A stretch of 64,000 nt of DNA from Haliclystus octoradiatus (Eukaryota > Cnidaria > Staurozoa > Stauromedusae > Haliclystidae): contig OU744451.1 of the NCBI GenBank assembly GCA_916610825.1, positions 5,297,345-5,361,344 of the forward strand, in the 5' to 3' direction. The position numbers were made by a program, and so were the translations under genes. Below, one piece after another: positions 1 through 49,848 of this stretch. The notes under the pieces are model-generated. The model saw only the letters and a list, made by a program, of their open reading frames with translations. It did no database searches and had not been told where the DNA came from. Each line of letters opens with the position of its first letter. Within the stretch, counting starts at the first letter, position 1.

Positions 1-2
1 CA

Positions 3-434
3 ACTGGTTATGTGATTAATGATCAGGTGATGCTTAGAAAAGTTTGGTCTAAAGCTGGTATATCTAGAAAATTATTACCAAAGTACGTTGGCCCTTACCG
101 TGTTGTGGAAGTGCGTCGACCGGATTATGTGATTTCAATCAATGGTAAACATTGTCAAGTTTATGGGTGTAATCTCAAAAGGTTTGTATCAACTGGTGAT
201 GATGCTGATGTTGACAATGATTCATATGATCCACTGATGATTCTGGAACCACCCTCTGATGTCCAACAACCTGATGTTGTCCATGGTGATGATGAGCCGA
301 TCGCTGAGGCTGAAGCAAACCAAGATGGCGATCCAGACGATGAAGACAGTTCAGATGAAGAAGACGATCCCTTAGCCTTTGTTATTGGCGCATCAAGTCG
401 TGGTAGAATATGTAAGAAAAGATTATTGGTATAA
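3..434 (+). CDS. Ty3/Gypsy element Y, integrase C-terminal tail (5' end off window)
   Basis: This is the last 143 codons of a Ty3/Gypsy pol polyprotein whose beginning lies before the window. The same sequence is the end of the integrase at 44,280-45,098, so the identification rests on that longer copy. The first about 65 residues resemble the small beta-barrel C-terminal domain of retroelement integrases (KYVGPYRVVEV, then GCNLKRF). The rest is a very acidic tail with runs of Asp and Glu. It differs from the second copy at a handful of codons. The frame is open and ends with TAA. Its presence at the left edge implies another array unit upstream. Confidence 0.8.
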   Translation, partial: TGYVINDQVMLRKVWSKAGISRKLLPKYVGPYRVVEVRRPDYVISINGKHCQVYGCNLKRFVSTGDDADVDNDSYDPLMILEPPSDVQQPDVVHGDDEPIAEAEANQDGDPDDEDSSDEEDDPLAFVIGASSRGRICKKRLLV

Positions 435-1617
435 TAACTCTTTCACATATTGAATATTGCTAGTTTAATGATATAGTTCACGATAAATCGATTACGAATA
501 AAATTTGATATTAAATGTTGTAGCTTTAAGAAAAATTTTGAGTGGAGGTATGTGAGGATTAGCCTCTCATTCATTATGTAGCCTCTTTTATATGCATATT
601 AAGTAGATAGCGGAGCCCATAAATAGGTCCGCTAATTGTGTTAAAGTACTTCAGTATAGGTTTACCCAGTTGAGTGGAAGTCAGTTATTATATAGTTTCA
701 AGTTACGAAATATGCGTGGTTATTGAGTTATAATATCCATAGATCCTAATACTTGGAGGGCTGTATCTAAATAAATATTCAATATATTTTAACCTAGTCA
801 TTCTAGCTCACTTCGAACATTCTGAGAGCTATATCTAATGATATCTAGTTAGTTAACTTTGTTTACATCCACTCAAGCTATCACGTTCATTATAATCACG
901 CCGTTAAAGACAACCTTTCATACATCCACTGCCGCGCTAAGTATCACGTTTAAAATCTTAACTCAGTTAGAATTGTACGCTTCTCATTATCCACACAATT
1001 TATTACGTTTAATAAAATTAACGCCATTAAAATACGACTTTTCATTAATATGCAACATTTTTTAAACCACCCAACACGCCATCCCATACGTTTATTTTCA
1101 CCACGCCATTAAAATACAACTTTCCTTAATTCCACGCAACTCGTGGAATGCGGAAAATTTTTATTTATAATCTAAGCAAACGACTTTCGGATAACAATAG
1201 GAAGTTTACATAGTGTTATAAATCACTAAAGCGTGAAATGCATACCAAGCATTCCTTTACTAGCATGGAAATAGCCACTCCGTTCCTAATATGAATTTTC
1301 GTTTATAGCATTCGTAGCTAGATTCGTAGCATGACTTTCCGTTTGATATTGTTCCTTCTTGGATCAGTGTACAAGACGCGTGGTGACAAAATTTAAAATT
1401 TCAGGGATTTTTGTGCTAAGTAAATAATAGTTGTTTAACTCGTTTTTGACAAAATATAATTATAACTATATTCACAGAAATTAACAGTAACAATAGTTGT
1501 CTAAACCTATAATAATTAGTTAAAAATATTTGAAATTGTAGCGTTACTTTGTATTCATTTTGATTTTATTAATCTATTATTTCACAGTATTTATATTACG
1601 CGCTTGCTAACGTGCGA
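435..1617 (+). other. Element Y polypurine tract, LTR start and flanking non-coding DNA
   Basis: About 115 bases after the pol stop there is a purine-rich tract (around 540-549) followed by TGTGAGGATTAGCC at 551, the likely start of the Y 3' LTR. A TATA-like CATAAATA near 620 sits between AGCGGA and TCCGCT, consistent with an LTR promoter. The right end of the LTR cannot be set because no 5' LTR of Y is in the window. Between 880 and 1,140 the phrase CGCCATTAAAATAC recurs two or three times in diverged form. No convincing coding region is seen; the one open frame here has no protein-like composition. Confidence 0.5.
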
Positions 1618-1691
1618 TTGAACGCAAGTTCTGAATTTGCGTTAAAGCCCAATTTGCGTTCAAACGAATATTCGTTTATACGAATATTCGT
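1618..1691. repeat. Cluster of short palindromes
   Basis: Two palindromes built on ACGAATATTCGT stand side by side (1,663-1,676 and 1,680-1,691). They are preceded by TTGAACGCAA and its inverted partner TTGCGTTCAA, and by two direct copies of AATTTGCGTT. The cluster is about 1.3 kb upstream of the secreted-protein gene. An identical cluster lies near 46,282-46,355 in unit 3. Unit 2 lacks this region because of the junction at 22,599. It may be a binding site for a dimeric factor or part of a retroelement LTR; the sequence alone does not decide. Confidence 0.6.
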
Positions 1692-2116
1692 TCAACTTCA
1701 CACGCGTCCATTAATCTACCAATCACATATAGACTTATGAACACCTATTTTCATATCACGTGACCTGTCAATCATAGATAATATATAAGCTAATGTCCCA
1801 ATTCATCTATCGGTAGTTTTAACAGTAGTTATCATTAATTATCTTATTAAATCACATATTCTCATCATTATATTTGTCCTTATTGAATCGTTATAGTTAT
1901 GTCGTAACGAACGCAAAATTAAATTCTATACACTTCGTTACAGAAACACCCCTAATTTCAATGGTAGATATTCTTGTGTTTGTTGTTTTTGAATCTGCTG
2001 AAATATTGTTCAGAACAAAATTGAAATCAATCAATCACACCAAAGAATCAGCTAATTGCTCGAATTTAAGTGAAGTTGGACTTTCTTGCCAGATTATAAA
2101 ACGCGAACATGAAAAC

Positions 2117-2900
2117 TTGTCTCTTGATGCATTTTTTTTTATCTCCATTGCGATTTTTAATCATTAGAACTTTTCATGCTATTTTAACTGTTGGAGCAGT
2201 AGAAACAGGTTGGGTTTCTTACAGGAAAACAAATTATAAATCGTCCACGTGTATGAAAACTGATTGCTATAGCTGTTATTTTCAAGCTTTTGACAATAGA
2301 AAACATATCGTGTTACCATGGATATCGGTTTTTGCATGGAACGTATCAACGAAATTTATTTGTACGATATTGTTATCACTCAACGATAAAATCGCAAATA
2401 TGACACTATATCAATTTGTCTCTTGATGCATATTTTTTATCTCCATGACGATTTTCAATCATTAGGGTATATCAACATATCAAGCTTTGTTGGAACAGTC
2501 GAAACAGATTGGGTTTCTTACAGGATAATAAATTATAAATCGTCCACAAGTTTGAAAACTGGTTGCTATAGCTGTTATTTTCTGAATGCAGCTGAATTAT
2601 ATATCATCCACATCTATGAAAACTAGCTGGTTGCTCTATAGTGCTTTCTCACATCGGCCATGTTGCTGTTGGATAATAATAAATCAAGTTTTTACGGTCT
2701 TTTTAAAAACGCCACAAGGGTTATCAAATTTTCTTTAAATAACCCTAGAGCTGAATTATAAATTGTTCACAAATATGAAACCTGTTAAACTTTTGACAAT
2801 AGAAACACATTGTGGTATCCATGGATATCGGTTTTTGCATTGAACGTAACAATGAAATTTATTTGTACGATATAGTTGTCATTCAACGATTAAGACAGAA
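2117..2900 (+). repeat. Diverged direct repeats upstream of the secreted-protein gene
   Basis: Three related blocks are arrayed head to tail. Block 1 (about 2,117-2,417) and block 2 (about 2,418-2,640) both start TGTCTCTTGATGCAT and share the runs TTGGGTTTCTTACAGGA and AAATTATAAATCGTCCAC. Block 3 (about 2,750-2,900) matches the second half of block 1: 2,319-2,388 and 2,820-2,890 agree at most positions, both containing CATGGATATCGGTTTTTGCAT. The open frames across these blocks (1,874-2,626) are probably incidental. The blocks reach into the sequence just before the gene's first likely ATG. Confidence 0.7.
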
Positions 2901-2949
2901 TACATCGACTGAGAAGGTGCTCAATTCGTTTAACTCAAATATCCTAAAA

Positions 2950-4077
2950 ATGAAGCCACCTTTATTTTTAATTTTTATTCTTACATGTTTGTTTTTTATT
3001 AATTTCCTTATCAAAAATGGAGAAACAGCATGTGGATCATTAAATAACGACAATAACCTTCAGACTACCGGCGAATTCACTGATACAACTGCAGGAAATA
3101 TTTTTATCGCTCAACCATCTTTGACCTACTCCAACACAACATTATCAAGGTGTACCATGATATTTGTAGCAAATGTTGGAATGTTATCAATGAATGTTAT
3201 TGGTGAAAGTCCCTCAAATGTGACATGTCAGATCTTTCAACAGAAGGCATGCACAAATAACATGCTCCAAATCAACAGTTGTTCAACTTATCATGAAAAA
3301 ACTAGTAAGTATATAATATATATACAAATCAAATTGTTTTATGCTCAATTTCTCAATTTGTAGCTTATAGGTTGTCTAGGCAATAGTTAATATAGCCAGT
3401 CTTGCAAAATGAATAATAAGAAGAAAGAAAAATCATGGAGAGGTATAAAACAATTAAAAAAGTCATATAGTGTACCTGAACAGTCGGAACTTAATTCGGG
3501 AAAAGCGTAATGATATCACACAATATAAGTATAACACAGCATCATGATTGTGACATGAATAAACCCGACGTTAGTTGAACTGTTGACAATGACGCGAACT
3601 GCAAATTATAGATAATCAAATATGCTGTCTTGATAACTTCATTAATCAAATATTCTTTTAATAGATCGTTATTTGATTGGTGTCATGGTTGTTGGTTCGA
3701 GAGATGACATGCCTGCAAATTTCGTTTTCCAACAGCCTTCTGGAATGTACAGAGTAAGGCTCGATCATGTCAGTGGAGGATTAGTATGTATGGTTAACAT
3801 TTTATCACCTTTTGGATGTTTCTGGAATGGTGGAGGTCGTGCAAATTCAATTTTACTAACAGAAGGTCATCGTGGAGTGATTATTATTAATTATTTCAAG
3901 TTCTCAGAGTTTGAGGGCATCGATGGATTGACAACATCGTTTGTTGCTACTTGTGAATGCTTTCATTTGATTCAAGGTGCAAACTATTCATTCTGGTATA
4001 GACCAGACTATCACGATCATTTTGAGTCAGACAATTCCGGTCAAACTTCATTTCGTATGTTGGTTGAACTTTGCTAG
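2950..4077 (+). CDS. Secreted cysteine-containing protein, copy 1 (two exons)
   Basis: I do not recognise the family. Exon 1 (2,950-3,304) starts at an ATG followed by a typical signal peptide (MKPPLFLIFILTCLFFINF), with likely cleavage near GETA-C. The exon ends at ACTA|GTAAGTAT, a near-consensus donor. The intron (3,305-3,664) ends TTCTTTTAATAG. Exon 2 (3,665-4,077) continues in phase, giving about 255 residues. The mature part has about ten cysteines and three N-glycosylation sequons (NTT, NVT, NYS), as expected for an extracellular protein. No membrane segment follows the signal and there is no known enzyme motif. The frame is open a further 46 codons upstream to an ATG at 2,821, but that lies in repeat DNA and would bury the signal peptide, so 2,950 is preferred. 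All three copies keep both splice sites and the frame. Confidence 0.65.
3305..3664 (+). other. Predicted intron of the secreted-protein gene, copy 1
   Basis: The intron has a GTAAGTAT donor and an acceptor ending TTTTAATAG, is 360 bp long and lies in phase 1. Splicing joins the two open exons without a stop. Equivalent introns are at 23,366-23,727 and 47,969-48,330, with small sequence differences that do not touch the splice sites. Clustered differences between copies near 3,508-3,590 are confined to the intron. Confidence 0.65.
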
Positions 4078-4658
4078 AATTAAGAATAACTCATTAATCT
4101 TAAGAACACGAGATAGCAAGAAGATCTCATTAACTCTATCACTGCTGAAGCTATAATATAACTATTTATTTGGGGTTTATTAAGTCACGTTATCTAAGCA
4201 ATTTTTATAATCTATTTATTGACATTATTATAATTTATTATAAATTTACAGACAGGAAGATTTATTACTACACAATATACAATTGACTATACACCATAAG
4301 CTATACACAATTACTTGAAATAACTACAGACAGGAAGACTTTAATACAATCGTTTATAACACAATAAGCTTATTACAGTATATTGAAAATGAAATACGGA
4401 AACTCAATGGGACTAACGGGAAAATAATGAATACGTTATTTACTAACTTAAGGAATACGATAATAATAAAATAACAACCGCTCATGTAGTAGGGCACTGC
4501 ATCGACGACGATAAAACATTTTCCGATGACGATGCGGTAAATCTTTTTGACCCGATCCCCGCTTCATGGTCCAGTAGGTTATAAGTGGAAGCATGCTTTC
4601 CTTAATTTACTTGTCAGTTTTAGCAAATAAAATACAATACATAAAATACATACAATAC
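4078..4658. other. Non-coding spacer with a 263-bp presence/absence segment
   Basis: No gene is seen. The segment 4,299-4,561 is present in units 1 and 3 (48,965-49,227) and absent from unit 2, where CACCATA joins directly to CTTCATAGTCC at about 24,360. The segment ends in GATCCCCGCTTCAT (4,554-4,567), an exact 14-bp inverted match to ATGAAGCGGGGATC at 5,183-5,196, so the kinase fragment between is flanked by inverted repeats. The repeat GACAGGAAGA occurs at about 4,251 and 4,328. Confidence 0.7.
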
Positions 4659-4917
4659 AATATTAAACGTGCCAATGTATTGCTAAGCGACGATAAATTG
4701 AATATTAAATTAACAGATTTTGGAATATTGAGACGATTAAAACATTCTTGTACGAAGGCTACCTCACATTTGTCCAAAGGAACTGTACCTTGGATGGCAC
4801 CAGAACAAATATTCCCTCATTCAGCAGGTGAATGTTATTGGTTCAAAGCAGATGTATGGAGTTTTGGTTGCACTGTTTCTGAAATGCTAACTGAAAATGT
4901 ACATTGGCACGAACTTT
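4659..4917 (+). pseudogene. Orphan kinase C-lobe fragment, copy 1
   Basis: About 86 codons match the kinase of the downstream ankyrin-kinase gene, from the catalytic loop (NIKRANVLL) through DFG and GTVPWMAPE to HWHEL. No N-lobe precedes it and the last about 55 residues of the C-lobe are missing. Outside the matched block the frame runs into AT-rich sequence that resembles no kinase. It is therefore a truncated duplicate, not a functional domain. The match is diverged (for example RRLKHSC for KRIKHSC, EQIFPHSAG for EVMFPECAN), so the duplication is older than the tandem units, all three of which carry it (24,459-24,717; 49,325-49,583). An exon of an unrecognised spliced gene is possible but unsupported. 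Confidence 0.75.
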
Positions 4918-5043
4918 ACCAGTGCTTTTATATTAAGATCTTAATTTATTTTCTTTTTGACTTTTGTTTTTAAACAGGTGGAACATTGATAACAGCTGTA
5001 AATATGTTTTTACGTAGCTGATCTATTTAACCTGTATAAAAAT

Positions 5044-5045
<2 letters not shown>

Positions 5046-5091
<46 letters not shown>
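5046..5091. repeat. (ATT)n microsatellite
   Basis: A pure trinucleotide run of about 46 bp. The same run is about 25 bp in unit 2 (24,846-24,870) and about 46 bp in unit 3 (49,712-49,757). Confidence 0.95.
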
Positions 5092-5092
<1 letters not shown>

Positions 5093-5182
5093 AGTTGTAC
5101 AACTTTATGAGTTAAAAGATTTTATGTGGATCTGACTAAAGTCATAATTGGAAGAAGGTCCTGGAGTCCATCCTAAATTTCT

Positions 5183-6826
5183 ATGAAGCGGGGATCATGT
5201 TAGGTGTCTCTCGTCTCTTGCGTTTTTTACTTAACTTTTCTCTCAGTTGTGGCCTCTTGTTGGTCAGACTGCGTCAAGTGCTATTTTCTGTCATTTTTGA
5301 TCCAAAATATCGCGCGAAAGCTTGAGAACATTAATATCGCTGTTGACAGGGATTGTTATTCATTCAAAGCTTGAATTAATTTGTATATCGGTTAATCAGA
5401 TATCTTTACTATTCTTTGGTATTATGGATGTGCCTTGCTGTTTACTTCAAGAATTGTTTAGGCTATTTTGTTGTACATTGAGATGAATTATCATTTACCG
5501 TTATTTATGTAAAAGCTTTAAACATTCTATACCGTAACCGTGTGTGTGTGTGTGTATTTTATTTTAATTCGTAAGCCAACATGGGCAGTATTGCTCGTTT
5601 ACATTGGGACTAATAAGATATAATTAACTAAATCTACTATGTAATAACAGTAAGAAGTTAATAACAGTAACTAGGAAAGATATTTAAAAACAAATGGAGT
5701 AGTAAGCAGCGTTTTGTCAGCGTGCTGCTTTGACCCAGTCGAGGCTTTAAATGAATTTGGTTATACTTCGACTAAAGAATTTGTAATTATTCAAATTTTT
5801 CAATTTGTTGGGAGAAATGTTCAAAGAGATGTATATAGCAATCAATCAGTTCATTTTTTTTAAAAATTATTTAAGGGATAATCATTGTGGGTTTTAACTA
5901 GCTCTAATGTCCTGCGTTCAGCATCAGACTAGAAGACCTCGCATAATTGAATACTTTCTTTTCCAACATTCATGCATTTGCAAAGTTTAGTACTGTACTA
6001 ATGTTTGGTATCACCCTGTTAGTTTTAATGATTTATTATCGTAATGTTTATTGTTTTCGTTTGTATTTGTATTTGTGTTTCGCACGTCGCTGGGACGTCG
6101 CTCTTGGTCTATCTTCCTACTAAAACATTTGTGTGTGTGTAATCAATTTGACGATTTGTGAAATAAATAGCTCAAGGTTCATCCATTATAACACCAAAGA
6201 ATACGGAATATATCTAATATACAGATATACAAATTATTTTAAACTTCAAGTGAATAACAATTACTTCTTGGGGGGTAACTCCAGCTCTCCAGGGAAAGGC
6301 GGGTGCCACTTTCGAAAAAGGTGAAGTACCCAAAAAGTTCCAAAAATTCTGTTGATACTACCCAAAAAATTCGAAAAATAGAAAGTTCAAAAGGTTCCAG
6401 CAGATTGATTGATTTTAAGAAAATACACCAAATGTTGGAAAAAAGTTTCAAAAATTCTTGAAAAAGTCAAAAATAGGATAACCAAAAGTCAAAAATAGGA
6501 TAACCAAAAGTCAAAAATAGGATAACCAAAAGTTCTAAAATTCGAAATCTCATACGCAAAAAGTTTTTCTCTGCCGGAATATGGAGCTAAAAAAGTGGCA
6601 TGTCCCCGTACAGCCGTCATATGGGAGTTGCCCTCCGGGAATCACTGTGACCCTGTCAACAAGCACGATACTCATTGCAATGTTACAATCAAACTTTAGC
6701 GCGATATTTTGGAACAAATATGACAGAAAATAGCACGTGATGTATTCTGACCAATCAGTAGCCACGAAGAGCACAAAAGACCGACCAAATGACCAACGGA
6801 ATTACTTTTGGCATGATCCATTTCAT
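5183..6826. mobile_element. Candidate non-autonomous inverted-repeat (foldback/MITE-like) element, copy 1
   Basis: The left arm (about 5,183-5,350) and right arm (about 6,651-6,826) are diverged inverted repeats. Shared stretches, reading the right arm in reverse complement, include GAAGCGGGGATCATG, TTGGTCAG, GTGCTATTTTCTGTCAT, CCAAAATATCGCGC and GTTGACAGGG. The outer match is clearer in units 2 and 3, where the right end reads CATGATCCCCTTCA. The interior has no transposase-like frame; it holds a TG run near 5,540, AT-rich DNA and a 22-bp minisatellite. Transposase family and target duplication are not determinable. Copies are at about 24,962-26,582 and 49,849-51,465, all in the same unit position, so they arose by unit duplication rather than separate insertions. 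Confidence 0.45.
6462..6531. repeat. 22-bp minisatellite, three copies
   Basis: The unit AAAAGTCAAAAATAGGATAACC is repeated three times in tandem here but only twice at the equivalent places in unit 2 (about 26,239-26,285) and unit 3 (about 51,121-51,168). This is one of the few indels separating the nearly identical units 1 and 3. Confidence 0.9.
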
Positions 6827-6937
6827 TGTATGCAATCGAATGAGTCGAACGGACGGTAGCCTGCTGGCAGACTCACTGTTTATCAAATTTACATTTTGAC
6901 AGTGAGCCTGCGATCAGGCTAAACAGACGGATGGTGA

Positions 6938-7010
6938 GAAATTTTAATAGTTTTAATAATTTTAATAGTTTTAATAATTTTAATAATTTTAATAATTTTA
7001 ATAGTTAATT
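6938..7010. repeat. TTTTAATAR tandem repeat
   Basis: Seven or eight imperfect copies of a TTTTAATAG/TTTTAATAA word. It is present in all three units (about 26,696-26,760 and 51,576-51,645). No coding role is seen. From here to 7,644 the DNA is AT-rich, with one 82-codon open frame (7,360-7,608) that is discussed at the unit 2 equivalent. Confidence 0.8.
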
Positions 7011-7644
7011 TTTAATTTTAATTGTAATGAGATTTTCATGTTTGGATTATGGCTGGAATACTATCCGCAGGCGCAATAGTCAGAATACTTTCCGGTTGCA
7101 ATTCTGAGAATTTTATCCATGTTGATTTGAAATAGTCGATTGTTTTAAATCGAAAATACCAAGAATTTATAAACAACAAGGATATCAGAAACCTTCAGTG
7201 CAAATGCTATATACAAAAACTATATATAATTCATTCAAAAGATTGTTTTGATTTAATTGCCAGCTGAACTTTTCACGTTTGATAACATGAGGATGTAAAG
7301 AGTTTTTAATAATATCAAAGTCAGGTTCAATTTACCTATTTTTAGAAAAAATTTCATGGTTGGCTGGCCTCTGGCAGCGTTCGACGTTTGAATACGACAA
7401 ATTCAAACTAACAAAGTCAACAAAATTGGATCGTTTACTCGGACCTTGTATATCGTTATCAAGATATTTTAAAATGGGTATTTATGTACATTACATATTG
7501 ATTGCAGGTTTGAAGCAAAGAAAAGAAAACAACGTACATATTTGTTGTAGCGGACAAGTACTTGTTTCTGGCCAACATCCTTCGATCAGTAGGTATACTG
7601 CTCATTGAACAAGGAACTGACTTGGTTGGATGCTTAGTATATTA

Positions 7645-7988
7645 TGTTGTGGATCCAACAACGGATAACGAGAACATTGTTGACAATTTAAATATAAGTA
7701 ATTTAAGTAAGTTAACAAGAATTGGACGGAAGTCGTCGCCACCCAAGCGATTTGGTTTCACTGTATAGTTTCTTAGAATCATTTAGAGTTTCTTGGAATT
7801 ATGTAACTTCCTAACGGATGTGCTCGTATAGCATAGTTTTGTTGACTTTTGTGTTAAAGATATTTAGAAATGTAGTCGTTTAAGATTCAAATGGTCTTGA
7901 ATTATTATTGATTATGATGATTGGATTTATGTGAAATGAATGACTCCATGCATGGTGTTTTTGGATTTAGGAGCGTAGCTCACAATAT
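7645..7988 (+). repeat. BEL/Pao 5' LTR, copy 1
   Basis: It starts TGTTGTGGATCC directly after host sequence and ends near GCGTAGCTCACAATAT. It differs from the 3' LTR by small substitutions and indels, for example CTCCATGCATGG against CTCTATGG and TGATTATGATG against TGATATATATGATG. These differences mean the insertion is not brand new. An upstream host frame (7,562-7,768) reads through into this LTR by chance. Confidence 0.9.
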
Positions 7989-8190
7989 TATTTGAATCCC
8001 TGGCTATACTGATGTATATTATTGATGTTATTTTGCTTATTTGGAAAGCCCTCTTGGTGGATTTAGATTGATGTACAATCGTACGTACTGCAGATTGTGA
8101 TTGATGTTCTGATTGAACAACACAATACTGACGTTGAACATTGTACAATAGCATTTAGCTTGAATTGATTTATTGAAATAATTTGCTAAT

Positions 8191-9192
8191 ATGCCACCCA
8201 TAATCGAAAGAAATTTGAAACAACTGAAATTAGAAGAGTTGAAAGCAGCATGTATTGAACTTGGTTTATCTGATGCTGGTACAAGGGCAGAACTAATTAA
8301 GCGTATAGAAGAAGCTCAACCTTCTGATGAAAGTGACAATGATGATGCAATTGATGAAACTGATGCAATTAATGCCAGTAATAGCGTAGCTACAAATCCT
8401 GAAACGTCATCGATGATGCAAATGATGATGCAAATGATGCAGCAACAGCAGCAAGAAAATGCAAAACGTGAAGATAGATTGCAGCAAGAAAGTGCTAGAT
8501 TGCAGCAAGAAAATGCAAGACGTCAAGAGAGACTGTTAAAAGCTATTAGTGAACTTTCACCTGGTAATGCGTTATCTGAGAGACAAAGATCATCTAGCCC
8601 TCTCAGCCTAGACAGTACTGTCGGAGAAGATCCCAAATTAATCGTCGACCGTTTCAATTGGCTCTTTGATGATCTGAAGAAGAAAATAGAAAGAGTCAGC
8701 TTTGGATTAAAAGGCAAAGGGAACCACGTGGCATTAAAAGAAGGGATTAAGTCGTTGGAACGATCCGAAGAAAAGATAAATGGTTTAATTGGCGATAAAC
8801 GAATATATTTGGATGCCACTGAGATAAAACGTATCATTGATCAACACGCTAACTTAAGTGAAATTGTGTTTGAACATAGAAAAGAAGTGTCAAAAATATG
8901 TCAAGAAGAAGAAGAAGAGAAGAGAGCAGGTGGCCTACCAAATGGTATTCTACCCCCTGAATTCCACGGAGACATTAATCATTTCCCTTATTGGTGGGAA
9001 TCATTTGATGCGGTGGTGCATAGTAACCCAAAGGTGTCCCCTTCTTACAAGTATCGGTATCTTAGACAATCATTGAAGGGTACGGCTTCTAGATGTCTAG
9101 ATGGATTTTCTTCTTTAGTTGAAACGTATAATGCTGCATCGGAACATGTAAAACACGTTATGGACAGCCTAGGCAGATTGTCAGGTCTATAG
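8191..9192 (+). CDS. gag: BEL/Pao Gag N-terminal and central region, copy 1
   Basis: The frame of 333 residues starts at an ATG about 200 bases after the 5' LTR. Residues about 8-40 form a SAP-type helix-turn-helix (LKLEELKAACIELGL...RAELIKRIEEA), a DNA/RNA-binding fold. An acidic linker, a Met/Gln-rich coiled-coil stretch (about 75-120) and a helical region follow. Residues about 250-330 (LPPEFHGDINHFPYWWESFD...KYRYLRQSL) match the conserved Pao Gag domain (DUF1759 type). The product would form the capsid-like particle. The frame ends prematurely in TAG at 9,190-9,192, and the rest of Gag is found in another frame from 9,192, so there is a frameshift near the junction. Confidence 0.85.
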   Translation: MPPIIERNLKQLKLEELKAACIELGLSDAGTRAELIKRIEEAQPSDESDNDDAIDETDAINASNSVATNPETSSMMQMMMQMMQQQQQENAKREDRLQQESARLQQENARRQERLLKAISELSPGNALSERQRSSSPLSLDSTVGEDPKLIVDRFNWLFDDLKKKIERVSFGLKGKGNHVALKEGIKSLERSEEKINGLIGDKRIYLDATEIKRIIDQHANLSEIVFEHRKEVSKICQEEEEEKRAGGLPNGILPPEFHGDINHFPYWWESFDAVVHSNPKVSPSYKYRYLRQSLKGTASRCLDGFSSLVETYNAASEHVKHVMDSLGRLSGL

Positions 9193-12100
9193 TGAAGTCC
9201 ATTATTGATGTACAACAATTATCAATTAGCTCGGATTCCAAGCAATTGAGGACGAACTTTGATTTAATTTCAGGGAAAATGCATTTATTAGAATCATACG
9301 CAGATAAGATTGACAACCCTTTACATGCATTAATAATTCCCATACTGGAATCAAAGCTGCCAGCTGATTTGAAGACAGAATGGGAAAAGGAAATAATCAC
9401 AAAGTATGAAGATAAAGAATTCCCAACTTGGAAAAGATTTTGTGATTGGTTTTCAAGAGAGGTACGTTCAAGATAAACGGTTGACTGGAACCAAGAGAAA
9501 GCTGTAAAAAGAGTTATTAGACAACCACCTGACGATCAAAAAGATGCAAAGGTATTTTCTGCTCAAGCACTTACAACGGAAACAAGTCGAAATAGAGGAG
9601 GTGCAAGATCAAAATGTATTTATTGTGAGATGACTAATCATGATTTGGAAAATTGTTTTCTATTTGCAAAATTAGATATAAAGGACAAGTGGTATTTTAC
9701 TAAAGCAAAAGGATTGTGCTACTTATGTTTAGCTCCTCATCATAGATGGATGGAATGTACTAGAAAGACAAAATGCACAACAAATGATTGTGGTAAATCT
9801 CATCATGAATTGCTACATTTTGATAGTCGACCTGTAGAGTCGGAACGTGTTATCCAAGCAAATACTTCTAAAAGTCGTTGTTTATCTACTAAAGGAAGAA
9901 CTGTATTTACGTCAAAGATTATGCCATCTGCAGTTGCATTAATGACCAATGGAGGAAAATCATCTAAAGTTAGAGTAGCATTTGATTCAATGTGTAAAGA
10001 GACATTTGTTACAGAAAAAGCAGCTAGGAGAATCGAATTAGATATATGCAAAACAGAGTTAATTAAAATTACAGGATTTGATGAGAGAGTGTCTCATTTA
10101 AAAACTGGTCGTGTTGACTTTGGGCTTTCTCCTGTGAATAATTCTAGTATAAAAGTTCATATCAATGCTATTGTTAAACCTGGAAAAATTTGTGCTCCAC
10201 TAGATACTGTTGAGATTGATTTGGAACGTTGTACTCACTTAATGAATATCTGTATTGCAGATGAATTGCCCCATAACGAATGTGAAGTGGATGTTTTAAT
10301 TGGTATCGATTTCTTTTTGCAATTAGTATGTGGGGAAATAATACGCCATCCAACTGATGATTCTCTACCTGGAGCATTGCGAACTATATTTGGTTACGTA
10401 TTAATTGGCTCAAATCCCTTTGTTGGGAAGAAATCAAAATCATCGTGTTTATTTGTAGATTGTAAACCGCATACCAAACTAGAGAAAGAGGTGGAAAATT
10501 TTTGGAATCTCGAAGCAATAGGAATTAAGGACACTAATAAACAGTATACTTTAGACGAACGAACAGCTGTTTCAATATTTGAGAAATCTATTCGTTACGA
10601 CAATAGTCATTATTCTGTATCGTTACCATTTCGAGATGATGGACATATACCATGTAATAATTATCAAAATGCAAGGAAACAACTATTGTCAATTGAAAGG
10701 CGTCTGGAGAAAGATAAAGAAAAAAAGGAAGCGTATCGAAATTGTATGAACGATTATGATCGATTGGGATTTGCTCGTCCAGTGACTTCAGAAGAGAAGG
10801 AGAGGTTTGACAAAGGATCTCAATATTTCGTACCACATCATCCGGTTGAGAAACTTGATAGTTTGACAACTAAAACTAGAGTAGTTTTCAATGCAAGTGC
10901 AAAAGATATCAATGGCATTTCTTTGAATGATTGTTTGTTATCTGGTCCAGTATTACAGCCAGATTAGATAGAAGTGCTTTTAAGATTTCGATTTCATGAG
11001 ATTGCATTAATGGGAGATATTAAGAAGATGTTCTGCCAGACATCGATAAACCCTGAACATTATCAATTTCAGCAATATCTTTGGCAAGATTGTGATCTCA
11101 CCCGTGATCCTATTCGTTACGTAATGACAAGCTTGACGTTTGGAGTAAAACCTTCACCATACTTAGCAATTAGCTCTTTACTTCACCATGCTGCAAAAGA
11201 TGAGATCAAAGAATGCTTCCCACTGGCAAGTGTAGCAGCTACTCAAGATATTTATGTGGATGATTATTGTGGAGGAGGTAAATCTGTAGAACAAGTTACC
11301 AAATTACTATTTGAACTCATTGACATGTGCGATCTTGGTGGTTGGGAAATGACAAAGTTTATATCAAATTCCAAACAAATTATGGAAGCTATTCCGGTAG
11401 AGAAACGATTAACAAGCTTGATGGTTGATTTTGATTATAATGTAGATGACACTACGAAAGCACTTGGTATTGGATGGGATGTTCAGGAAGATCATTTTTT
11501 TATTTCGTTTAAATCCATTCATTACGAATGTAACCATTAATGTTACAAAACGAACAATCTTAAAGAAGGTATGTCAGATTTTTGATGTATTTGGATTTTT
11601 TGCACCTTTTATTATTCGTGCAAAAATTATGGTTCAATCATTATGGAAAATGGAATCGACATGGGATGAAGCACTGGACGGAGAGATTGTTGATATGTTT
11701 CATCAATGGGAGGAGGAGCTGCTTAGTTTGAATGATATTCGTATACCTAGATTTGTTATATGTGATGAAAAATACAAATCAATAGAGCTACATGCATTCG
11801 CGGATGCTTCGGAAAAGGCATATGGGGCTACAATTTATATACGCAGTGAAGATTTGAATGGACATTGAAACAGAAATCGTTACCTCGTTTGGAGCTGCTT
11901 GCAGTACACTGTGCTGCAGATTTAGTTAATTATGTTTGTGATGCATTGATCATTGTATTTACGTCTATTGAACTTTGGTCGGATTCTGAAATTGCATTAA
12001 ATTGGTTGAAAAAGCCAAGTACACATTGGAAAACATTTGTGGCTAACCGTGTACAAGAAGTCCATGATTTAGTTGGTAACAAGCATTGGCATCATGTGAA

Positions 12101-13744
12101 GAGTTGCGACAACCCTGCTGATTTTCTATCGCGTGGCATGGAAGTATCAAGCTTAAAGAATAGTAAATTGTACTGGCATGGCCCTGAATGGCTTGAGTTA
12201 TCAAAGGAACATTGGCCTTGCTATGTGATTGAAACTATTTTACCAGACGTTGAAATTGAAGCAAAAACAAAATGTCATACAGTTGTACCATTCGTAGAAT
12301 CTGAGCATTTATTTAACAATTTTGAGCGTTATGATAAATTGGTTCGTATTATTGGTCATATCTTGAAATGGAGGAAGATTGTCCCAAGAAATGTTGATGG
12401 AAAATTGACTATTGAAGATCTAAATGTGAGTGAATTACATTTACTGCGGTGTGTCCAACAGGCTCATTTCCCTTCCGAATACAAACTATTGCAAGATGGT
12501 AACCAGTTAAATGGCGATTGAGAAATTCTCTTCTTCCAGAGGAGACTAAACATCAGATTATTTTACCAAGTAATAATATCATCGTTGATAAACTCATTAT
12601 GATGTATCATCTTAAAGGGCATCATTCACCTATTGAGACTACTTTGTGTAATATTCGCACAAAATGTTGGATTATACATGGCAGAAGGCAGGTTATCAAG
12701 ACAATCCATCGATGTCTAATATGTAAACATTCAAGTACATCATCGTTGGAACAGAAAATGGGAGATTTACCAACACTAAGAGTTCAGCCTGCTCCTGCAT
12801 TTTCGAAAGTTGGTTTGGACTTTACAGGCCCATTATACATACGAACTGGGACAGTTGTTACTAAATGTTACATTTGCATATTCACCTGTGCTCTCAGCCG
12901 GATGATCCATTTAGAATTAACAAATAATATGGAAACAGAGGAATTTCTTGCTGCCTTTCGTCGGATGACAAATAGAAGAGGACTTTTATGTGATTTAGTA
13001 GTTAGTGATGATGCAAAAACCTTTCAAAAAGCATCACGTGTGGTCAGTAACATGAAATTTGAAGCAGATCTCTGGAAAAACCTTGATTCCACTTTAATTG
13101 AACGATTTTGTTTGAGTCACGGTATTAAATGGGAATTTATTACTGAACGTAGCCCCTTTCGTGGCGGATTTTGGGAACGGTTAAATCGTTCGTTAAAGAC
13201 ACCTCTGAGAAAGGTTCTTTCAAAGGCTCTATTGAACTATTGTGAAATGTATACTGTTTTAACCGATATTGAATCAGCAGTGAATCAGAGGCCATTGACG
13301 TGTCAAAGTACCGATTGTAGAGATGTTTTATCAATTACCCCTGCTCATTTGGCTTTGGGACGATCGCTTGGGACCCTTCCAGAACATCTTAATAAAGATG
13401 TTACTCTTTCAAAGAGATATAAGTATTTGCAGACGTTACTTACTCATTTTTGGAAAAGATGGTCTGTGGAATACTTACCAAATCTACAACGTCGAAGTAA
13501 ATGGCAAAAGAAAACGCCGGAGTTGGAAGTCAATGATGTTTGTTTAATTTCAGAGGATAACACACGACGCTCTACGTGGCCTATGGGTCGGTTTCAACAA
13601 GTAATACGTGGAAATGAGGGTTTAATCAGAACAGTACGACTGCAGACATCAAAGGGGGAACTGAATCGACCAGTTCAGAAATTGCACCTATTTGAAAAAT
13701 TCTTACCATCCAATGACTTGAGAGTAACCTCTCAAGGGGGGGAT
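9192..13744 (+). pseudogene. pol: BEL/Pao Gag C-terminus and Pol, copy 1 (interrupted)
   Basis: The Gag C-terminus (9,192-9,476) ends in an in-frame TAA at 9,474. The same frame resumes with zinc knuckles (CIYCEMTNHDLENC from about 9,615, then CYLCLAPHH) and a retropepsin-like domain in which the usual D-S/T-G reads DSM (AFDSMCKETFV). The reverse transcriptase begins before an in-frame TAG (10,965-10,967) and continues at 10,974-11,540 with YVDD. A frameshift leads to the connection/RNase H segment (11,541-11,868, HAFADASEKAYGA). After another shift RNase H ends (11,865-12,521, LWSDSEIALNW). The integrase follows in a third frame (12,518-13,816): H-H-C-C zinc finger, VGLDFTGP core and the Pao C-terminal domain. 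The last frame runs on into the 3' LTR. Confidence 0.85.
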
Positions 13745-13746
13745 GA

Positions 13747-14093
13747 TGCTGTGGATCCAACAACGGATAACGAGAACATTGTTGATAATTTAAATATAAG
13801 TAATTTAATTAAGTAAGTTAACAAGAATTGGACGGAAGTCGTCGCCACCCAAACGATTTGGTTTCACTGTATAGTTTCTTAGAATCATTTAGAGTTTCTT
13901 GGAAATATGTAACTTCCTAATGGATGTGCTCGTATAGCATAGTTTTGTTGACTTTTGTGTTAAAGATATTTAGAAATGTAGTCGTTTAAGATTCAAATGG
14001 TCTTGAATTATTATTGATATATATGATGATTGGATTTATGTGAAATGAATGACTCTATGGTGTTTTTGGATTTAGGAGCGTAGCTCACAATAT
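13747..14093 (+). repeat. BEL/Pao 3' LTR, copy 1
   Basis: A direct repeat of the 5' LTR, starting TGCTGTGGATCC after a run of G and ending near TAGCTCACAATAT. Host sequence resumes with TATTATATATACAAATG, exactly as in the empty site of unit 2. Confidence 0.9.
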
Positions 14094-14216
14094 ATTATAT
14101 ATACAAATGAATCTATGTCTGCATAATACCGATCTTGTTGAAGAAAAGATTATACTGTCTTGTCTGTCATAAGATTATTAATCGATCAACAAAATCTTGA
14201 ATAAATCAGAAACATT

Positions 14217-17200
14217 ATGAATGCGACTGACGACGAAAAATTGAATCGTTTGAATTTTGCAGTATGTTCAGGCAGAAAGGATATTGTTGAGTTGTTATTG
14301 CAAAATGAAGTCGATTACTCTAATAAATCAGTTGCATACCTCAGTAATATTAGCTGCACAAGCAGGACATGCAGATGTTGTTAAACTCATTTTAAATTTT
14401 CTGAAAAAGGATGAAGATATTAAAGCTGTTCTCGATGAAAAAGATGACAATGGAAGAACGTTGTTTCATGATATAGCAATGAGAGGTTTATCATCTGTTG
14501 TGGAAGTAATTATTGATTGTATACACAAAATGCAAGATTCTGAATACACAACTTTTATGATGAATGTAACTGATAATAAAAAACTCACTCCTTTACATTG
14601 GCTGCATGCGATGGTATGAAAGATACTGTTGAGCTACTGTTAAATAATAATGCTGACACTCATGCCACAGATATTCAATTGCATACACCAATACGATTTG
14701 CTGCAATTGGTGGGCATGCAGATGTTGTAAAACTCATTTTAAATTTTCTGAAAAAGGATGAAGATTTTAAAGCTGTTCTCGATGAAAAAGATGACAATGG
14801 AGTAACACTGCTTCATTATGTAGCACTGCGAGGTTTATCATCTGTTATGGAAATAATTATTAATCGTATACACACAATGCAAGATTCTGAATACACATCT
14901 TTTGTGATGAATGTAACTGATAATAAAAAACTTTCTCCCTTACATTTGGCTGCATACCATGGTATGAAAGATACTGTTGAGCTACTGTTAAATAATAATG
15001 CTGACACTCATGCCACAGATATTCAATTGCATACACCAATACGATTAGCTGCAAAAGTTGGGCATGCAGATGTTGTAAAACTCATTTTAAATTTTCTGAA
15101 AAAGAATGAAAATATTAAAGCTGTTCTCGATGCAAAAGATGACAATGGAAGAACACTGCTTCATTATGTAGCACTGAGAGGTTTATCATCTGTTATGGAA
15201 ATGATAATTAATCGTATACACACAATGCAAGATTCTGAATACACATCTTTTGTGATGAATGTAACTGATAATAAAAAACTTTCTCCCTTACATTTGGCTG
15301 CATACCATGGTATGAAAGATACTGTTGAGCTACTGTTAAATAATAATGCTGATATTCATGCCACAGATATTAATTTGCGTACACCAATACAAATTGCTGC
15401 AAGAAAAGGGCATGCAGATGTTGTAAAACTCATTTTAATTTTTCTGAAAAATGATGAAGATATTAAAGCTGTTCTCGATGAAACAGATGCCATTGGAAGA
15501 ACATTGTTTCATGATGTAGCAATGAGAGGTTTATCATCTGTTGTGGAAGTAATTATTGATTGTATACACAAAATGCAAGATTCTGAATAGGAAACCTTTA
15601 TGATGAATTTCACTGATAATAAAAAACATACTCCATTACATTTGGCTGCAAGGAATGGTATGATAGATATTGTTGAGCTACTGTTAAATAATAAAGCTGA
15701 TATTTCTGCTTCAGATGATCACTTGCGTACACCAATACAATTTGCTGCAATAGCAGGGCATGCAGATGTTTTGCAGCTATTTTTTAATTTTCTGACAAAA
15801 AAAGAAGAAGCAAAAGATGTCATCAATGTTGCTGATTTTCTGGGATGTACAATCCTTCACTTTGCAGCAATTAAAGAATCTTTGCCTATCATTAATGTGG
15901 TGATTGATCGAATAAAGAGGATGGGAGTTCGTAACTATACCACATTAATTATAAATGCGACTATGTATGATCAATGTTCCCCATTGCATATTGGGTCGAA
16001 GAATGGAAATTTAAAGATTGTGTCTTTTCTAATTGAAAATGGTGCTAGAGTTAACGATGTTAACATCAATGGTTGTACACCGTTACATTATGCTGCACAT
16101 TTTGGGAATTCTGATGTTGTAGTTGAACTATTACAGAGATATTCTGACTATGTACCTGATAATGAAAACAATACACCATTAATACATGCTACGATTGGAG
16201 GACATTTAGCAATCGTTAAAATACTTATTAAATCTCTATATAATGATGATAAAGTTAAACACGATTGTATTATCGAAGACTTAGAGAAAGCAAAAGAGTT
16301 AGCAGTGAGAGATAGTCACAAGTTTATTGCAGATGAAGTTATTTATTGGATTGTGAAATTCAAAACAGAACAAAATGACAATTGCTCCACTGCCACTGCT
16401 GTAATGAACAGTAGGTCCGACAAGGTGATGCTAGACATTGCAAACGGTTGGGAGAATGTAAGATTACTTGGAAGTGGAAGATTCGAAAATGTAAACCTTG
16501 GTCGTACTTGTAATTCAAAATTAGATATTGCAGTTAAAATTATTGATTTAGAGATGCAGAGCACATTATTTGAAGAGGAACTGACTTGTTTGTATGCAGC
16601 AACTGAATTGCTAAAGTCACTTAATAATAAACGAATTACTAAACTATATGACGTGGAACAGAGTTCTAAATATCCTTACATCTTTATCGAATACATTGCT
16701 GCAGGTTCTATGCAGGATTATGTCAAAGAGAATGGCAGGATATTGTCTGAAATCATAATACCTAATTATTCTGCGCAGATGCTCGAAGGTATGATGTACT
16801 TGCACGACGAAGAGGTTATGCATTGTAATATTAAAAGTGCCAATGTATTGCTAAGTGACGATAAACTGAATATTAAATTAACAGATTTTGGAATATTGAA
16901 ACGAATAAAACATTCTTGTATGAAGGCTACCTCACACTTGTCCAAAGGAACTGTACCTTGGATGGCACCAGAAGTAATGTTCCCTGAGTGTGCAAATGAA
17001 TGTTATGGGTTCTGAGCAGATGCATGGAGTTTTGGTTGCACTGTTTATGAAATGCTAACTGCAAATGTACCTTGGCATGAACTTGCAGTTGCTCAACTTA
17101 TGTTTAAACTTGGATTCGGTATCAACACACCAGAGATACAAGATGACATATCAGATTCATTGAAAGAATTTATTCAAAACGCTTTGACCTATGATTCAGT

Positions 17201-17267
17201 GTATCGTCTGTCTGCAGAGGAACTGTCATATCATCCATTTGTAGAGGAGCATATTCAACCATTTTGA
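14217..17267 (+). pseudogene. Ankyrin-repeat MAP3K-like kinase, copy 1 (disrupted)
   Basis: Ankyrin repeats run from about 14,250 to 16,260, built from a 348-bp (116-residue) higher-order repeat; GGTATGAAAG marks begin near 14,613, 14,961, 15,309 and 15,657. After a linker, a kinase domain (about 16,455-17,255) shows GSGRFENV, AVKII (Lys at 16,536), MHCNIKSANVLL, DFG (16,884) and WMAPE, and ends YRLSAEELSYHPF, like STE11/MAP3K kinases. The catalytic-loop Asp is Asn (16,827) and the third Gly-loop glycine is Glu, so activity is doubtful. Breaks: an extra A near 14,327 relative to unit 2, a missing T near 14,597, TAG at 15,588-15,590 and TGA at 17,013-17,015. The BEL element lies just upstream of the first ATG (14,217) and separates this region from any 5' exons. 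Predicted ancestral product: cytoplasmic ankyrin-kinase scaffold. Confidence 0.85.
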
Positions 17268-19267
17268 AAGGAGAATTCAATAATATAAAAATTTACCATG
17301 TCAAAATCAAAATCACATGTTGCAGTTGAAATGATTGGAATCGAAAGTTCAAGTATTTAGTGGATTTTAATGAAATTATGTAAATTATCTTTTCATCTTT
17401 TCTTTATCTTATCTTTTTATCTTAAAATGATGAGCATTTCAACTTTATGTTTTTCTGGGAAGGCAACAGCAAGACTTGCTTTAGCATCGCTGATAAATTA
17501 ATTGCATTTGGTTAAGATATGAGTTTGTTTTCATTATGTATGCTATATTTGACTTTTTTACTTTGAGAAGATAAAGTTGCCAAATCTTAATTAATTACAA
17601 TTAGACTGATGATAGGTGGTTCAAATATTTGTGTTTTTGAATAATGTTAAAATGGCACTCTATTGGCTCAAGTTTAGTCTCATGCCTATCCTAAATCAAA
17701 TCAACAGCTGTAGTATTTGATACTGAAGGATTAATTTGCAAGTAACACACTGAAAGTTTTAAGAAATAGTCTTTCACTCTAAGTATTTGAAAAATTGCTA
17801 CTTTTACGTAATCAATATTAACCCTGCAAACAGCCAGTTAGCGTCCATAAACTGTTTTCACAGGGATTGTATCCTTCTGAATTATGAATTTTGCCTATTT
17901 AATGACATACGATTTGTTACACTTGCGCAGCCACAATAATTTTAATGTGGAAACTGTTCAATGTCACCCCTACGTTTTTGTAAATACTCTGAATATTTTC
18001 TCAACCACAGTTACCAAGAAGTAATGTGGAATTTTATTCAGCGCACAACATATTATTATTATTGATTGACTGTAGGCAACTTGATAACGGTAATATCTAA
18101 TATTGTAGTTAAGTAGGCTACAAGTATAAAAATCCATACTTGATTAGCATTATGTATTAAATTATTCTGGTTACATAAATTTAATAACAGTTTTCAGTAT
18201 ATGTTAATATCATTCAGATTAAAATCACTTTGTTGTCATATTTAAAAATTATTTCTTGATACATATCATTAAATTTGCGTTAGGGGTTGAACCACTGTCA
18301 ATTAATGTCGTTGATTTTATTTCATAAATTTTACTTGGAAATGATGTCCTCAAAACATAGTTTGCTGAAAGTTCTCCTCTGTAAATAAAAAAACAAAACA
18401 AACATGATTAATACTAGCAGTTCCAATCAAACGTTTTTGTTGAGTTCATGAACTGTTCAATAACTTCACAAACTGTTCAAGAAACGTCGAATGATTTTGT
18501 CATCTTCGGATAAGTGAAATTACCGCTTCTTTGCAGCCTAGCATTGAACCTTATAAATTAATTTCTGGTCAAATCCTTGTTAATCAATTTCGGAGTAGTG
18601 CAATGTCGGATAAATGCAATAAAAATCGCTGGCAATTTTGATTTGCACTTAAAGCGGATTACACTGTATCATCAAAACTTTTATGTATGTGTGTGGTAAT
18701 TTATAGTTATATACTCATTCCACCCGCTACAAGCTGTTGGCCAGCTCTTGAACATTCTTTTGCAAAAAGTAAAAATCAAGAGTTCATATAGAATATTCTT
18801 GAACTGTCACATTGTTCAGTTCCATTATGCACTTTTTGATGATTTAGTTCATCAACCATCACTTTGTATTGTGATTGGTAATCAACTCGAGAAATTTTAC
18901 ATGAAATCGTCTGTGAAAATGGTGTAGTGACAAGTAATTTGGATGGTATCGCCCTACCGAAGGCATTCGTACCACTCCTCTATTTCTAGAGGAGTTGCTC
19001 TTTTTGCTGAGTGCAATGATTTTAAATACTCTTTAAAGATCTCAGCCAGGACACTGCAGATCAATTTCAACATATCTCATAGCAGATAGGTCTGGATCGT
19101 CAATGCCCAACGATGTGCCGCAGCTACTCACAATGCAATTCAATCTGGACCATTCCATCTTCCATCCTTAGATGGTACTCTTTTGATGTTTTGATAAACT
19201 CAAGGCTGGGTTAACCTTGAAGATTGTGATAAACATTTATGGAGGAAACAGAAAATGGAATTTCTTC
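17268..19267. other. 3' flank of the ankyrin-kinase, unit 1
   Basis: No gene is seen in 2 kb. It contains scattered copies of GTTCATGAAC-type words (18,440-18,480) and a compact hairpin. Equivalent DNA is at 37,759-40,265 and 61,906-63,905. Unit 2 differs by a replaced stretch (about 37,880-38,055) and an extra block of about 365 bp (about 39,400-39,772). A polyadenylation site for the gene probably lies here, but no clear signal stands out. Confidence 0.6.
18975..18994. other. Short perfect hairpin CTCCTCTA-TTTC-TAGAGGAG
   Basis: An 8-bp perfect stem with a 4-base loop, followed by a T-rich stretch. It is conserved in units 2 (about 39,975) and 3 (about 63,613). The role is unknown; it may be an RNA 3'-end structure or a chance palindrome within a repeat. 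Confidence 0.4.
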
Positions 19268-19732
19268 TGACAGTGTAAATCAATTAGTGAGAAAAAAACC
19301 AAAACGCATTCACCTTTCATACACATTCAAACACCACTCTCTATAGTAATCACTCATATAGCGTCTAAAATTGTATATTTTTTTATTGAATTAACCCTAA
19401 TATATAGAGATCAACTGCATACAGTCATGGATTGTATTATAAGGCGTGCAATCTCACGCGCACGCCTAAACACTTAGAAAATTGCACGCCAAAATGTATT
19501 ATGTATGATTGAGACCAGAAAGACTAACATTAAACTGTGACCAACATAATTTATAAATCTACTACAACGGTTTTCCAATGTTATAAGTCATAGATGAGTC
19601 AGTTATATTTTTTATATCTATTCAAGATGGCTACTCCCACCCAAGTCTGATAACATAGACTGCCATGAGGCAGCCTCTTATTCATTATAAGTTAATGAGG
19701 CTAAGCAAGATGACAGAGTCTACATCATAACA
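19268..19732 (-). repeat. Presumed 3' LTR of element X, copy 1
   Basis: The start at 19,732 follows a polypurine tract on the minus strand. The LTR contains a perfect 10-bp inverted repeat, GGCGTGCAAT (19,443-19,452) with ATTGCACGCC (19,481-19,490). The distal end is uncertain because no second LTR is available. At the proposed end, units 1 and 3 have six bases (TCTTCT region) that unit 2 lacks. Confidence 0.45.
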
Positions 19733-21066: not shown

Positions 21067-21462
21067 TCACTGGTTGGCCAAATATAACCCATATTGGACT
21101 GCCAGCATCTCTTTTTCAATTGGAGCATACCTTGTCTGAGTAGAATTCAGCGTGTATGAAGCATATTCAATTGGTCTGTTGCCTTGCAATAGCACCGCTC
21201 CTATTCCATGGCTTGAGGCGTCTACTGCGACAGTTATTGCCGCATTTACGTCGTACAATTGAAGTGCTAGAGCACATGTTATCAGCTCTTTAATTTCTGC
21301 CAATGCTTTTGTGTGATTCTCGTCCCAAAGGAATATGCTGTCTTCTTTCAATATGTCTCGTAGTGTTAAGGATTTCTCAGAAAAGTGTGGACAAAACTTT
21401 GACACATATGTCACCATGCCAAGAATGCGTTTTAGATCCTCTTTGTTTTTTGGCTGCGGCAT
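21067..21462 (-). pseudogene. Element X connection/RNase H fragment, copy 1
   Basis: 131 residues on minus: the thumb/connection (KNKEDLKRILGMVTYVSKF) and the start of RNase H (ITVAVDASSHGIGAVLLQ, PIEKEMLAVQYGL), typical of Ty3/Gypsy pol. Homology extends a few codons upstream toward 21,500, where it meets element Y. Confidence 0.8.
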
Positions 21463-21501: not shown

Positions 21502-22599
21502 TTGACAATTGCGTATGTCCGATTAAATAATGTCACTATTACTGATCCTTACCCAATTCCTGATATGAGACATATTGTTCAAAAGCTATCAAGAAGGTCT
21601 ATTTTTAGTGCACTGGATTTACGTCATGGATATTGGCACATCCCCATGGCAACACGTGATATAGAGAAAACAGCGTTTACAGTCGGTAATCATCATCTTG
21701 AATGGGTAACAATGCCAATGGGTATGAAAAATTCAGCAAAGACTATACAACGCAAATTGGATGAAGTTGTAAATAAGGTAATCACAAGGACAGGACGCCA
21801 GAATTGTATTAGGTATATTGATGATCTATTTATAGCTAGTAACAATGATGAGGAACATTACAATTATTTGAAAAATATATTAGATGTATTAGGAGAAGAA
21901 AATTTATATTTAAATCCACAAAAATGTCAATGGCAACAAACACAAATTGAGGAACTAGGACATGTTGTTAGTAGTGGGAAGGTATTAATGAAAGAATCGT
22001 ACACAAATGAAATCGATGAATTTATCACATCCCCAAGGCAACACGTGATATAGAGAAAACAGCGTTTACAGTCGGTAATCATCATCTTGAATGGGTAACA
22101 ATGCCAATGGGTATGAAAAATTCAGCAAAGACTATACAACGCAAATTGGATGAAGTTGTAAATAAGATACACCCAAGAATGTTAAACAATTGAAACAATT
22201 TCTGGAATTTATTGGTTTCTATGCCTCCTTTGTTCCACATTATGCTATTATTGCTAAGCCCCTTTCAGATAAATTACAGAAGGGCATAGAATGGTGTTGA
22301 TCAGATGAAAATACAAAAGTATTTGAACAGTTAAAATTACATATTAGAAATGCACCAAGTAAGTGTAATGTTGATTTAACTTCTCCTATTGAAATGACAA
22401 CAGATGCAAGTAATGAAGTTTATGGTATTGCACTTGAACAAAATGGTCAACCAATTGAATTTGCATCAGGTAAATGGTCAGCCACACAACAGAAATGGAG
22501 TACTACAAAAAAGGAGTTAAGAGCTGACGTTGAAGGTGTTAAAACGTTTCGCCATTACTTATTAGGAGCACCATCTGTTATATGGTATACTGATCATGA
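21502..22599 (+). pseudogene. Ty3/Gypsy element Y, RT to start of RNase H, copy 1 (truncated both ends)
   Basis: The homology begins inside the reverse transcriptase (YVRLNNVTITDPYPIPD), with the catalytic LDLRHGYWHIPM and YIDD. It continues to LNPQKCQW...GHVVSSGKV, breaks, and resumes at RNase H (TTDASNEVYGIALEQNG...VIWYTDHE; 22,394-22,599). Positions 22,026-22,166 are a second copy of 21,637-21,777, inserted inside pol. At 22,599 the element stops and host spacer begins, so the rest of RNase H, integrase and LTR found at 43,496-45,215 are missing here. Confidence 0.85.
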
Positions 22600-27268: not shown

Positions 27269-27412
27269 TTTGAAGCAAAGAAAACAACGTACATATTTGT
27301 TGTAGCGGACAAGTACTTGTTTCTGGCCAACATCCTTCGATCAGTAGGTATACTGCTCATTGAACAAGGAACTGACTTGGTTGGATGCTTAGTATATTAT
27401 ATATACAAATGA
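27269..27412 (+). other. Possible 5' coding exon of the ankyrin-kinase, unit 2
   Basis: After ATTGATTGCAG (acceptor-like) there is an open frame of 47 codons with protein-like composition (VVADKYLFLANILRSVGIL) ending in TGA at 27,410. In units 1 and 3 the same stretch carries five extra bases (AAAGA region near 7,523 and 52,161) that break the frame, and the BEL element is inserted in it at 7,645 and 52,283. It could be a relic of an N-terminal exon. Against this, no in-frame link to the ankyrin frame at 27,462 is evident. Confidence 0.25.
27393..27400. other. Empty BEL/Pao insertion site
   Basis: The uninterrupted sequence TTAGTATATTATATATACAA here is the pre-integration form of the site occupied by the BEL element in units 1 and 3. 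Confidence 0.9.
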
Positions 27413-49583: not shown

Positions 49584-49709
49584 ACCAGTGCTTTTATATT
49601 AAGATCTTAATTTATTTTCTTTTTGACTTTTGTTTTTAAACAGGTGGAACATTGATAACAGCTGTAAATATGTTTTTACGTAGCTGATCTATTTAACCTG
49701 TATAAAAAT

Positions 49710-49758
<49 letters not shown>

Positions 49759-49848
49759 AGTTGTTCAACTTTATGAGTTAAAAGATTTTATGTGGATCTG
49801 ACTAAAGTCATAATTGGAAGAAGGTCCTGGAGTCCATCCTAAATTTCT

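Follow-up and report, generated by a model that had tools for sequence, protein, structure and literature searches.

Introduction

The Drosophila element roo is a long terminal repeat (LTR) element of the BEL type. Gene conversion of LTRs has been proposed as one reading of the identical LTRs of roo in D. ananassae, in a paper that also cites ectopic recombination between roo copies (PMC3087523). Unlike the case reported here, no donor and tract are identified in the portion of that paper on which we draw. In plant LTR retrotransposons, a survey with GENECONV found, in the sections considered here, which deal mainly with LTRs, that converted regions are most often of 100-1000 bp and that conversion within one element is more frequent than between elements (PMC7251063). 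For Alu SINEs, the part of the literature used here reports cases of old copies replacing young ones, with a similarity optimum of 89-100% (PMC8230782).

Here we describe a short tract in a BEL/Pao element of the stalked jellyfish Haliclystus octoradiatus that was very probably acquired by interlocus (ectopic, intrachromosomal) gene conversion from another BEL copy, named L021, after the segment bearing the insertion had been copied into a tandem array. As in the plant elements, a tract passed between elements, and its length lies inside the range given above; unlike what those sections describe, it is an internal pol tract and the two elements belong to different subfamilies (PMC7251063). As in the Alu work, to the extent that this source covers it, the direction is read from subfamily states, and the copies involved are around 91% alike, whereas Alus are short primate SINEs and here the recipient is a BEL/Pao element inside a tandem array (PMC8230782). 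A literature search based on titles and the opening parts of abstracts, with partial coverage, did not find a BEL/Pao conversion tract with a named donor.

Materials and Methods

The window is the whole stretch of 64,000 nucleotides that was analysed (C7:5297345-5361344), and the genome searched comprises 261.9 Mb in 33 contigs. Sites are numbered as in the window, for unit 1 of the array. The survey of the array beyond the window took in 120 kb more of the contig, in 12 of 14 stretches. The genome search for BEL copies gave at least 39 matches, 30 of them with loci extracted and nine without. The conversion scan covered 27 copies (unit 1 of the window, L001, L003, L004 and L005-L027) over 9,882-13,440, leaving aside L002 (which is unit 1), the truncated or split L028, L029 and L030, and the nine matches without loci. 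Of the 351 possible pairs 348 were tested, the remaining 3 being too alike or too short. The flank trees had 26 rows, with one of the 27 copies omitted as too gappy. Counts for the young subfamily refer to 13 rows that correspond to 12 copies, given that L029 and L030 are two loci of one interrupted element; L028 is excluded from them. The Pfam query was a piece of 330 bases, whose match covers profile positions 1-94 of 162.

Results

A single BEL/Pao insertion copied with a tandem array

Alignment of window positions 1-19,362 with 44,665-64,000 gave 99.6% identity, these being two units of a tandem array (units 1 and 2). When a piece of the element was used as query in a genome search, the same BEL insertion was located in four array units (C7:5308725, 5353363, 5381720 and 5405063), and the array, as seen with the added contig sequence, also has a unit that lacks BEL, situated between units 1 and 2 (around 22,600-44,664 of the window), and one partial further unit. 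As shown in Table 1, the element has two LTRs, a short TATTA-like target-site duplication and a corresponding empty site, and it carries a Pao-type pol with a Peptidase_A17 region. The LTR pairs of the four units align over 359 columns with 95.0-95.3% identity, with 6 mismatches and 5 gap openings in unit 1 (95.0%) and 5 mismatches and 6 gap openings in unit 2. The empty site was recognized because 24,362-27,400 matches 4,562-7,645 and 27,393-28,763 matches 14,091-15,460. The empty site in the BEL-free unit, together with the TA-rich duplication flanking the element, shows that the element inserted once and was copied along with the array, as proposed by an earlier reading made from the sequence only, according to which both window copies share one insertion.

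Other features of the array were also observed. A deletion of around 42 bp at about 11,862 is common to all four array BEL copies and absent from most other copies examined, and it marks the single origin of the array copies. A tandem repeat with a period of around 347 bp, whose copies are 86-89% alike, adjoins the BEL insertion (14,328-16,714 and 58,966-61,352). Unit 3 has an insertion of around 4.6 kb at the position equivalent to about 3,789 (C7 around 5,369,500), which units 1, 2 and 4 lack. An imperfect palindrome, with an 82% match to its own reverse complement, lies at 39,422-39,553.

Table 1. Coordinates, in the window, of the BEL/Pao insertion and of the probable conversion tract.
Feature	Position	Strand	Remarks
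BEL/Pao LTR element, unit 1	7645-14,092	+	Ends placed by eye; LTR start TG at 7645
Target-site duplication TATTA, unit 1 element	7640-7644 and 14,093-14,097		TA-rich; 4-7 bp by ambiguity
Same BEL insertion, unit 2 (probable recipient)	52,283-58,730	+	Unit 1 coordinates carried over, offset 44,638
Empty pre-insertion site, BEL-free unit between units 1 and 2	27,393-27,400	+	Read in the sequence
Unconverted sister sequence, unit 1	11,581-11,742	+	Start of the Peptidase_A17 region of BEL/Pao pol; haplotype as in units 3 and 4
Probable converted tract, minimum, unit 2	56,219-56,356	+	138 bp; 11,581-11,718 in unit 1 numbering
Probable converted tract, maximum, unit 2	56,180-56,395		216 bp; 11,542-11,757 in unit 1 numbering
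Fifteenth island difference, T to C, private to unit 2	56,380 (11,742 in unit 1)	+	L021 and the 25 other copies compared have T

A divergence island in which unit 2 is the changed copy

The sequence-only reading had noted some 15 substitutions between 11,581-11,742 and 56,219-56,380, and about six in the rest of the internal BEL sequence. The alignment gives exactly 15 in this interval and six elsewhere (8519, 8990, 9129, 10199, 10371 and 12834), and the 3' LTR adds two further substitutions between units 1 and 2 (13905 and 14023). The two units are identical in the sequence adjoining the island, for 581 bp on its left and 558 bp on its right. Chance clustering is ruled out by random placement, since 21 changes distributed over 5,749 bp never gave more than 8 within any 162 bp in 200,000 trials, in comparison with the 15 seen; the union bound for 15 changes within 162 bp is around 1.6e-16.

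Units 3 and 4 have the base of unit 1 at all 15 island sites, and the rows of the young BEL subfamily have it at 13 or 14 of them. At 11,718 the young-subfamily rows agree with unit 2; G is found there in units 1, 3 and 4 and is absent from all 23 scanned copies outside the array. Because the haplotype of unit 1 is also that of units 3 and 4 and of the young subfamily, unit 2 is the derived copy. The island is thus real, but the copy that changed is the one in unit 2 and not the interval of unit 1 to which the earlier reading had attached its mark. The other array units were also considered as donors, and they are ruled out, as units 1, 3 and 4 all have the ordinary haplotype.

L021 as the probable donor

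The base of unit 2 was found at 14 of the 15 island sites in L021 (C7:5592885-5593487, plus strand), which lies around 239.5 kb downstream of unit 2 on the same contig and strand. Both are identical at 199 of 199 bases over 11,543-11,741, whereas outside the tract they differ at 148 of 1,659 bases on one side and at 135 of 1,686 on the other (around 8-9%), in such a way that a tract identical to that of a paralogous copy is enclosed by divergent flanks. Within the tract the other non-array copies show 9 to 23 differences from L021, so this is not merely a conserved stretch. A genome search with unit 2's own tract returned 33 matches: itself, L021 at 99%, and others of which none was above 95%. 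These results bear out the proposal of conversion from a BEL relative elsewhere in the genome, for which the genome was to be searched for a copy with the donor haplotype over exactly this interval, and the lack of any such copy would have counted against it; such a copy exists, and among the copies examined it is L021 only. A mutation hot spot is also rejected, given that 14 of 14 tract changes are the bases of this single copy.

A second, more diverged subfamily includes L021, whose flanks are around 91% like those of unit 1. At 11,581, 11,627, 11,659 and 11,691 unit 2 and L021 have states in common that appear in none of the other copies tabulated, and at 11,658, 11,661 and 11,696 their states are fixed in 11 of 11 rows of the subfamily of L021, which shows the tract to be native to L021. 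This copy has several insertions relative to unit 1 and lacks one base at 11,805, so that its frame is lost shortly after the tract. Its diverged subfamily and its frameshift point to a transfer from L021 to unit 2, the putative source being L021 or an unassembled twin, since a twin could have been missed among the nine matches without extracted loci and with match counts that are lower bounds.

The run test and the trees agree with this assignment. Only the pair of unit 2 and L021 was significant after Bonferroni correction (7.1e-4, among 348 pairs), with a run of 81 matching polymorphic columns over 11,543-11,741, a length reached in none of 20,000 column shuffles, where the longest run was 62. 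In the tract tree unit 2 and L021 are joined with a support of 99/98, and a single clade of the four array units is rejected by the tract data (p-AU 6.1e-8). The flank tree, by contrast with the tract, shows no difference among units 1-4 and places L021 outside the young subfamily, the branch of which is supported with 100/100.

Limits of the tract

The nearest L021-specific sites absent from unit 2 are 11,541 on the left and 11,758 on the right, so the left end of the tract lies between 11,542 and 11,581 and its right end between 11,718 and 11,757. The right end is less sure, as the base of unit 2 at 11,718 is that of every non-array copy; if this site is left out, 11,696 becomes the last diagnostic site and the tract has a minimum of 116 bp. 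Of the 162-bp interval with 15 differences marked in the earlier reading, 14 differences belong to the tract, and that at 11,742 did not come from the donor. The latter change is unit 2's own, and may be either an unrelated mutation or one made during repair. As at most this one private change lies within the possible range of the tract, the conversion would not date far back in comparison with the separation of the units. No second L021 tract was seen in unit 2 on the basis of its five other private internal changes (8990, 9129, 10199, 10371 and 12834), which are unlike L021.

Coding effect of the tract

The tract is part of an open frame and is situated where the Peptidase_A17 region of pol begins. 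Unit 1 keeps the more typical Pao motif, as had been noticed from the sequence, with IFDVFGFF in comparison with IVDVFRFF in unit 2, and L021 also reads IVDVFRFF. Against the Pfam profile PF05380 (Peptidase_A17), unit 1 scored 92.8 bits (2.8e-26) and unit 2 80.9 bits (1.3e-22). It is unlikely that any function rides on this coding change.

Discussion

Interlocus gene conversion from L021 into unit 2 is thus, with high confidence, the reading that we favour. A segment with one BEL/Pao insertion would first have been copied into the tandem array, and afterwards a short tract of unit 2 would have been replaced by the matching stretch of L021 without crossover. The replacement could have taken place by homologous repair of a break in unit 2, through synthesis-dependent strand annealing or a similar process, with L021 itself, rather than an unassembled twin, as the presumed template. 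The exchange is non-reciprocal, as L021 keeps the states of its own subfamily and units 1, 3 and 4 keep the original ones, and there is no crossover, since identical sequence adjoins the island on both sides and the alignment of the units continues up to the last position of the window. Break repair from an ectopic template fits a tract that is short and lacks a crossover, flanks of around 91% similarity and a location on the same contig in the same orientation.

Near-identical repeats over kilobases are a setting in which consensus errors occur, and the four array copies are nearly identical over kilobases, so the tract might instead be an artefact of assembly or polishing, in which reads or consensus derived from L021 were placed into unit 2. 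We regard this, by argument, as quite improbable: reads with the ordinary haplotype would have come from the three other units, the reads of L021 would fit their own locus better on both flanks, which are around 8-9% unlike those of unit 2, and there is no evident reason for a short patch from the donor to prevail in unit 2 alone.

Still less probable is that the inserted element was already a mosaic with the tract of L021, produced for instance by template switching during reverse transcription, and that a copy of the young subfamily afterwards restored, by conversion, the ordinary haplotype in the ancestor of units 1, 3 and 4. Units 3 and 4 share the state at 8800, but the array is a mosaic, and the uncertain branching order of the units leaves some room for this reading. 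It needs two events in comparison with one, and besides these a later mutation to the G found at 11,718 in units 1, 3 and 4, and L021, the copy whose private states are found in unit 2, is frameshifted. Retroelement cDNA is known to recombine with genomic copies in the yeast Ty elements, and sequence alone cannot tell apart a cDNA or RNA of L021 from its chromosomal DNA as the template, but such a template is equally improbable, because L021 is diverged, interrupted by insertions and frameshifted beside the tract, which makes its expression doubtful, and because a donor on the same contig makes cDNA unnecessary.

Read as conversion from chromosomal L021, the tract of unit 2 is a clean instance of a known and well-documented process, ordinary interlocus gene conversion, and it leaves present knowledge of both gene conversion and BEL elements as it was. 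The example is unusually clean in that the recipient, three unconverted sister units, the empty site and the donor are all on one contig, so that the donor, the direction and the limits of the tract are open to direct reading. There is also a practical side, as dating by divergence of the copies in such arrays can be misled: of the 21 internal substitutions that separate units 1 and 2, 14 go back to this one event.

A broader reading, in which diverged and frameshifted BEL copies of this genome form a reservoir of sequence from which coding parts of young-subfamily copies are rewritten, and new variants arise by conversion between subfamilies and not by mutation or template switching alone, is improbable on present data. 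The conversion scan yielded one clear event and one borderline pair among 27 copies over 3.6 kb, and the rewriting between subfamilies is a single case, not yet a pattern. The borderline pair, L018 and L025 (both on C1, around 139 kb apart), has 114 matching polymorphic columns over 10,926-11,189 (0.067 after correction), a borderline sign of another conversion between BEL copies.

Other patchy differences in the array

A second cluster, with 11 substitutions between units 1 and 2, was observed at 159-618 (44,823-45,282 in unit 2). A search with this sequence returned 27 matches, of which 5 belong to the array and 22 lie elsewhere, and no outside conversion source was found among the 4 of these 22 that were compared. 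Some states of unit 1 are common to unit 4. One locus on C5 (L057) has the base of unit 1 at 5 of the 7 variable sites that it covers, so unit 1 may keep older states in this stretch. At 1,176-2,149, units 4 and 5 share 11 substitutions that set them apart from units 1-3; this patchiness would fit either an exchange between units or a duplication common to both. Relative to the other units covered, unit 3 and the BEL-free unit share five states at 21,267-21,460, and unit 2 and the BEL-free unit share four at 21,879-22,223, both of which are possible cases of exchange within the array.
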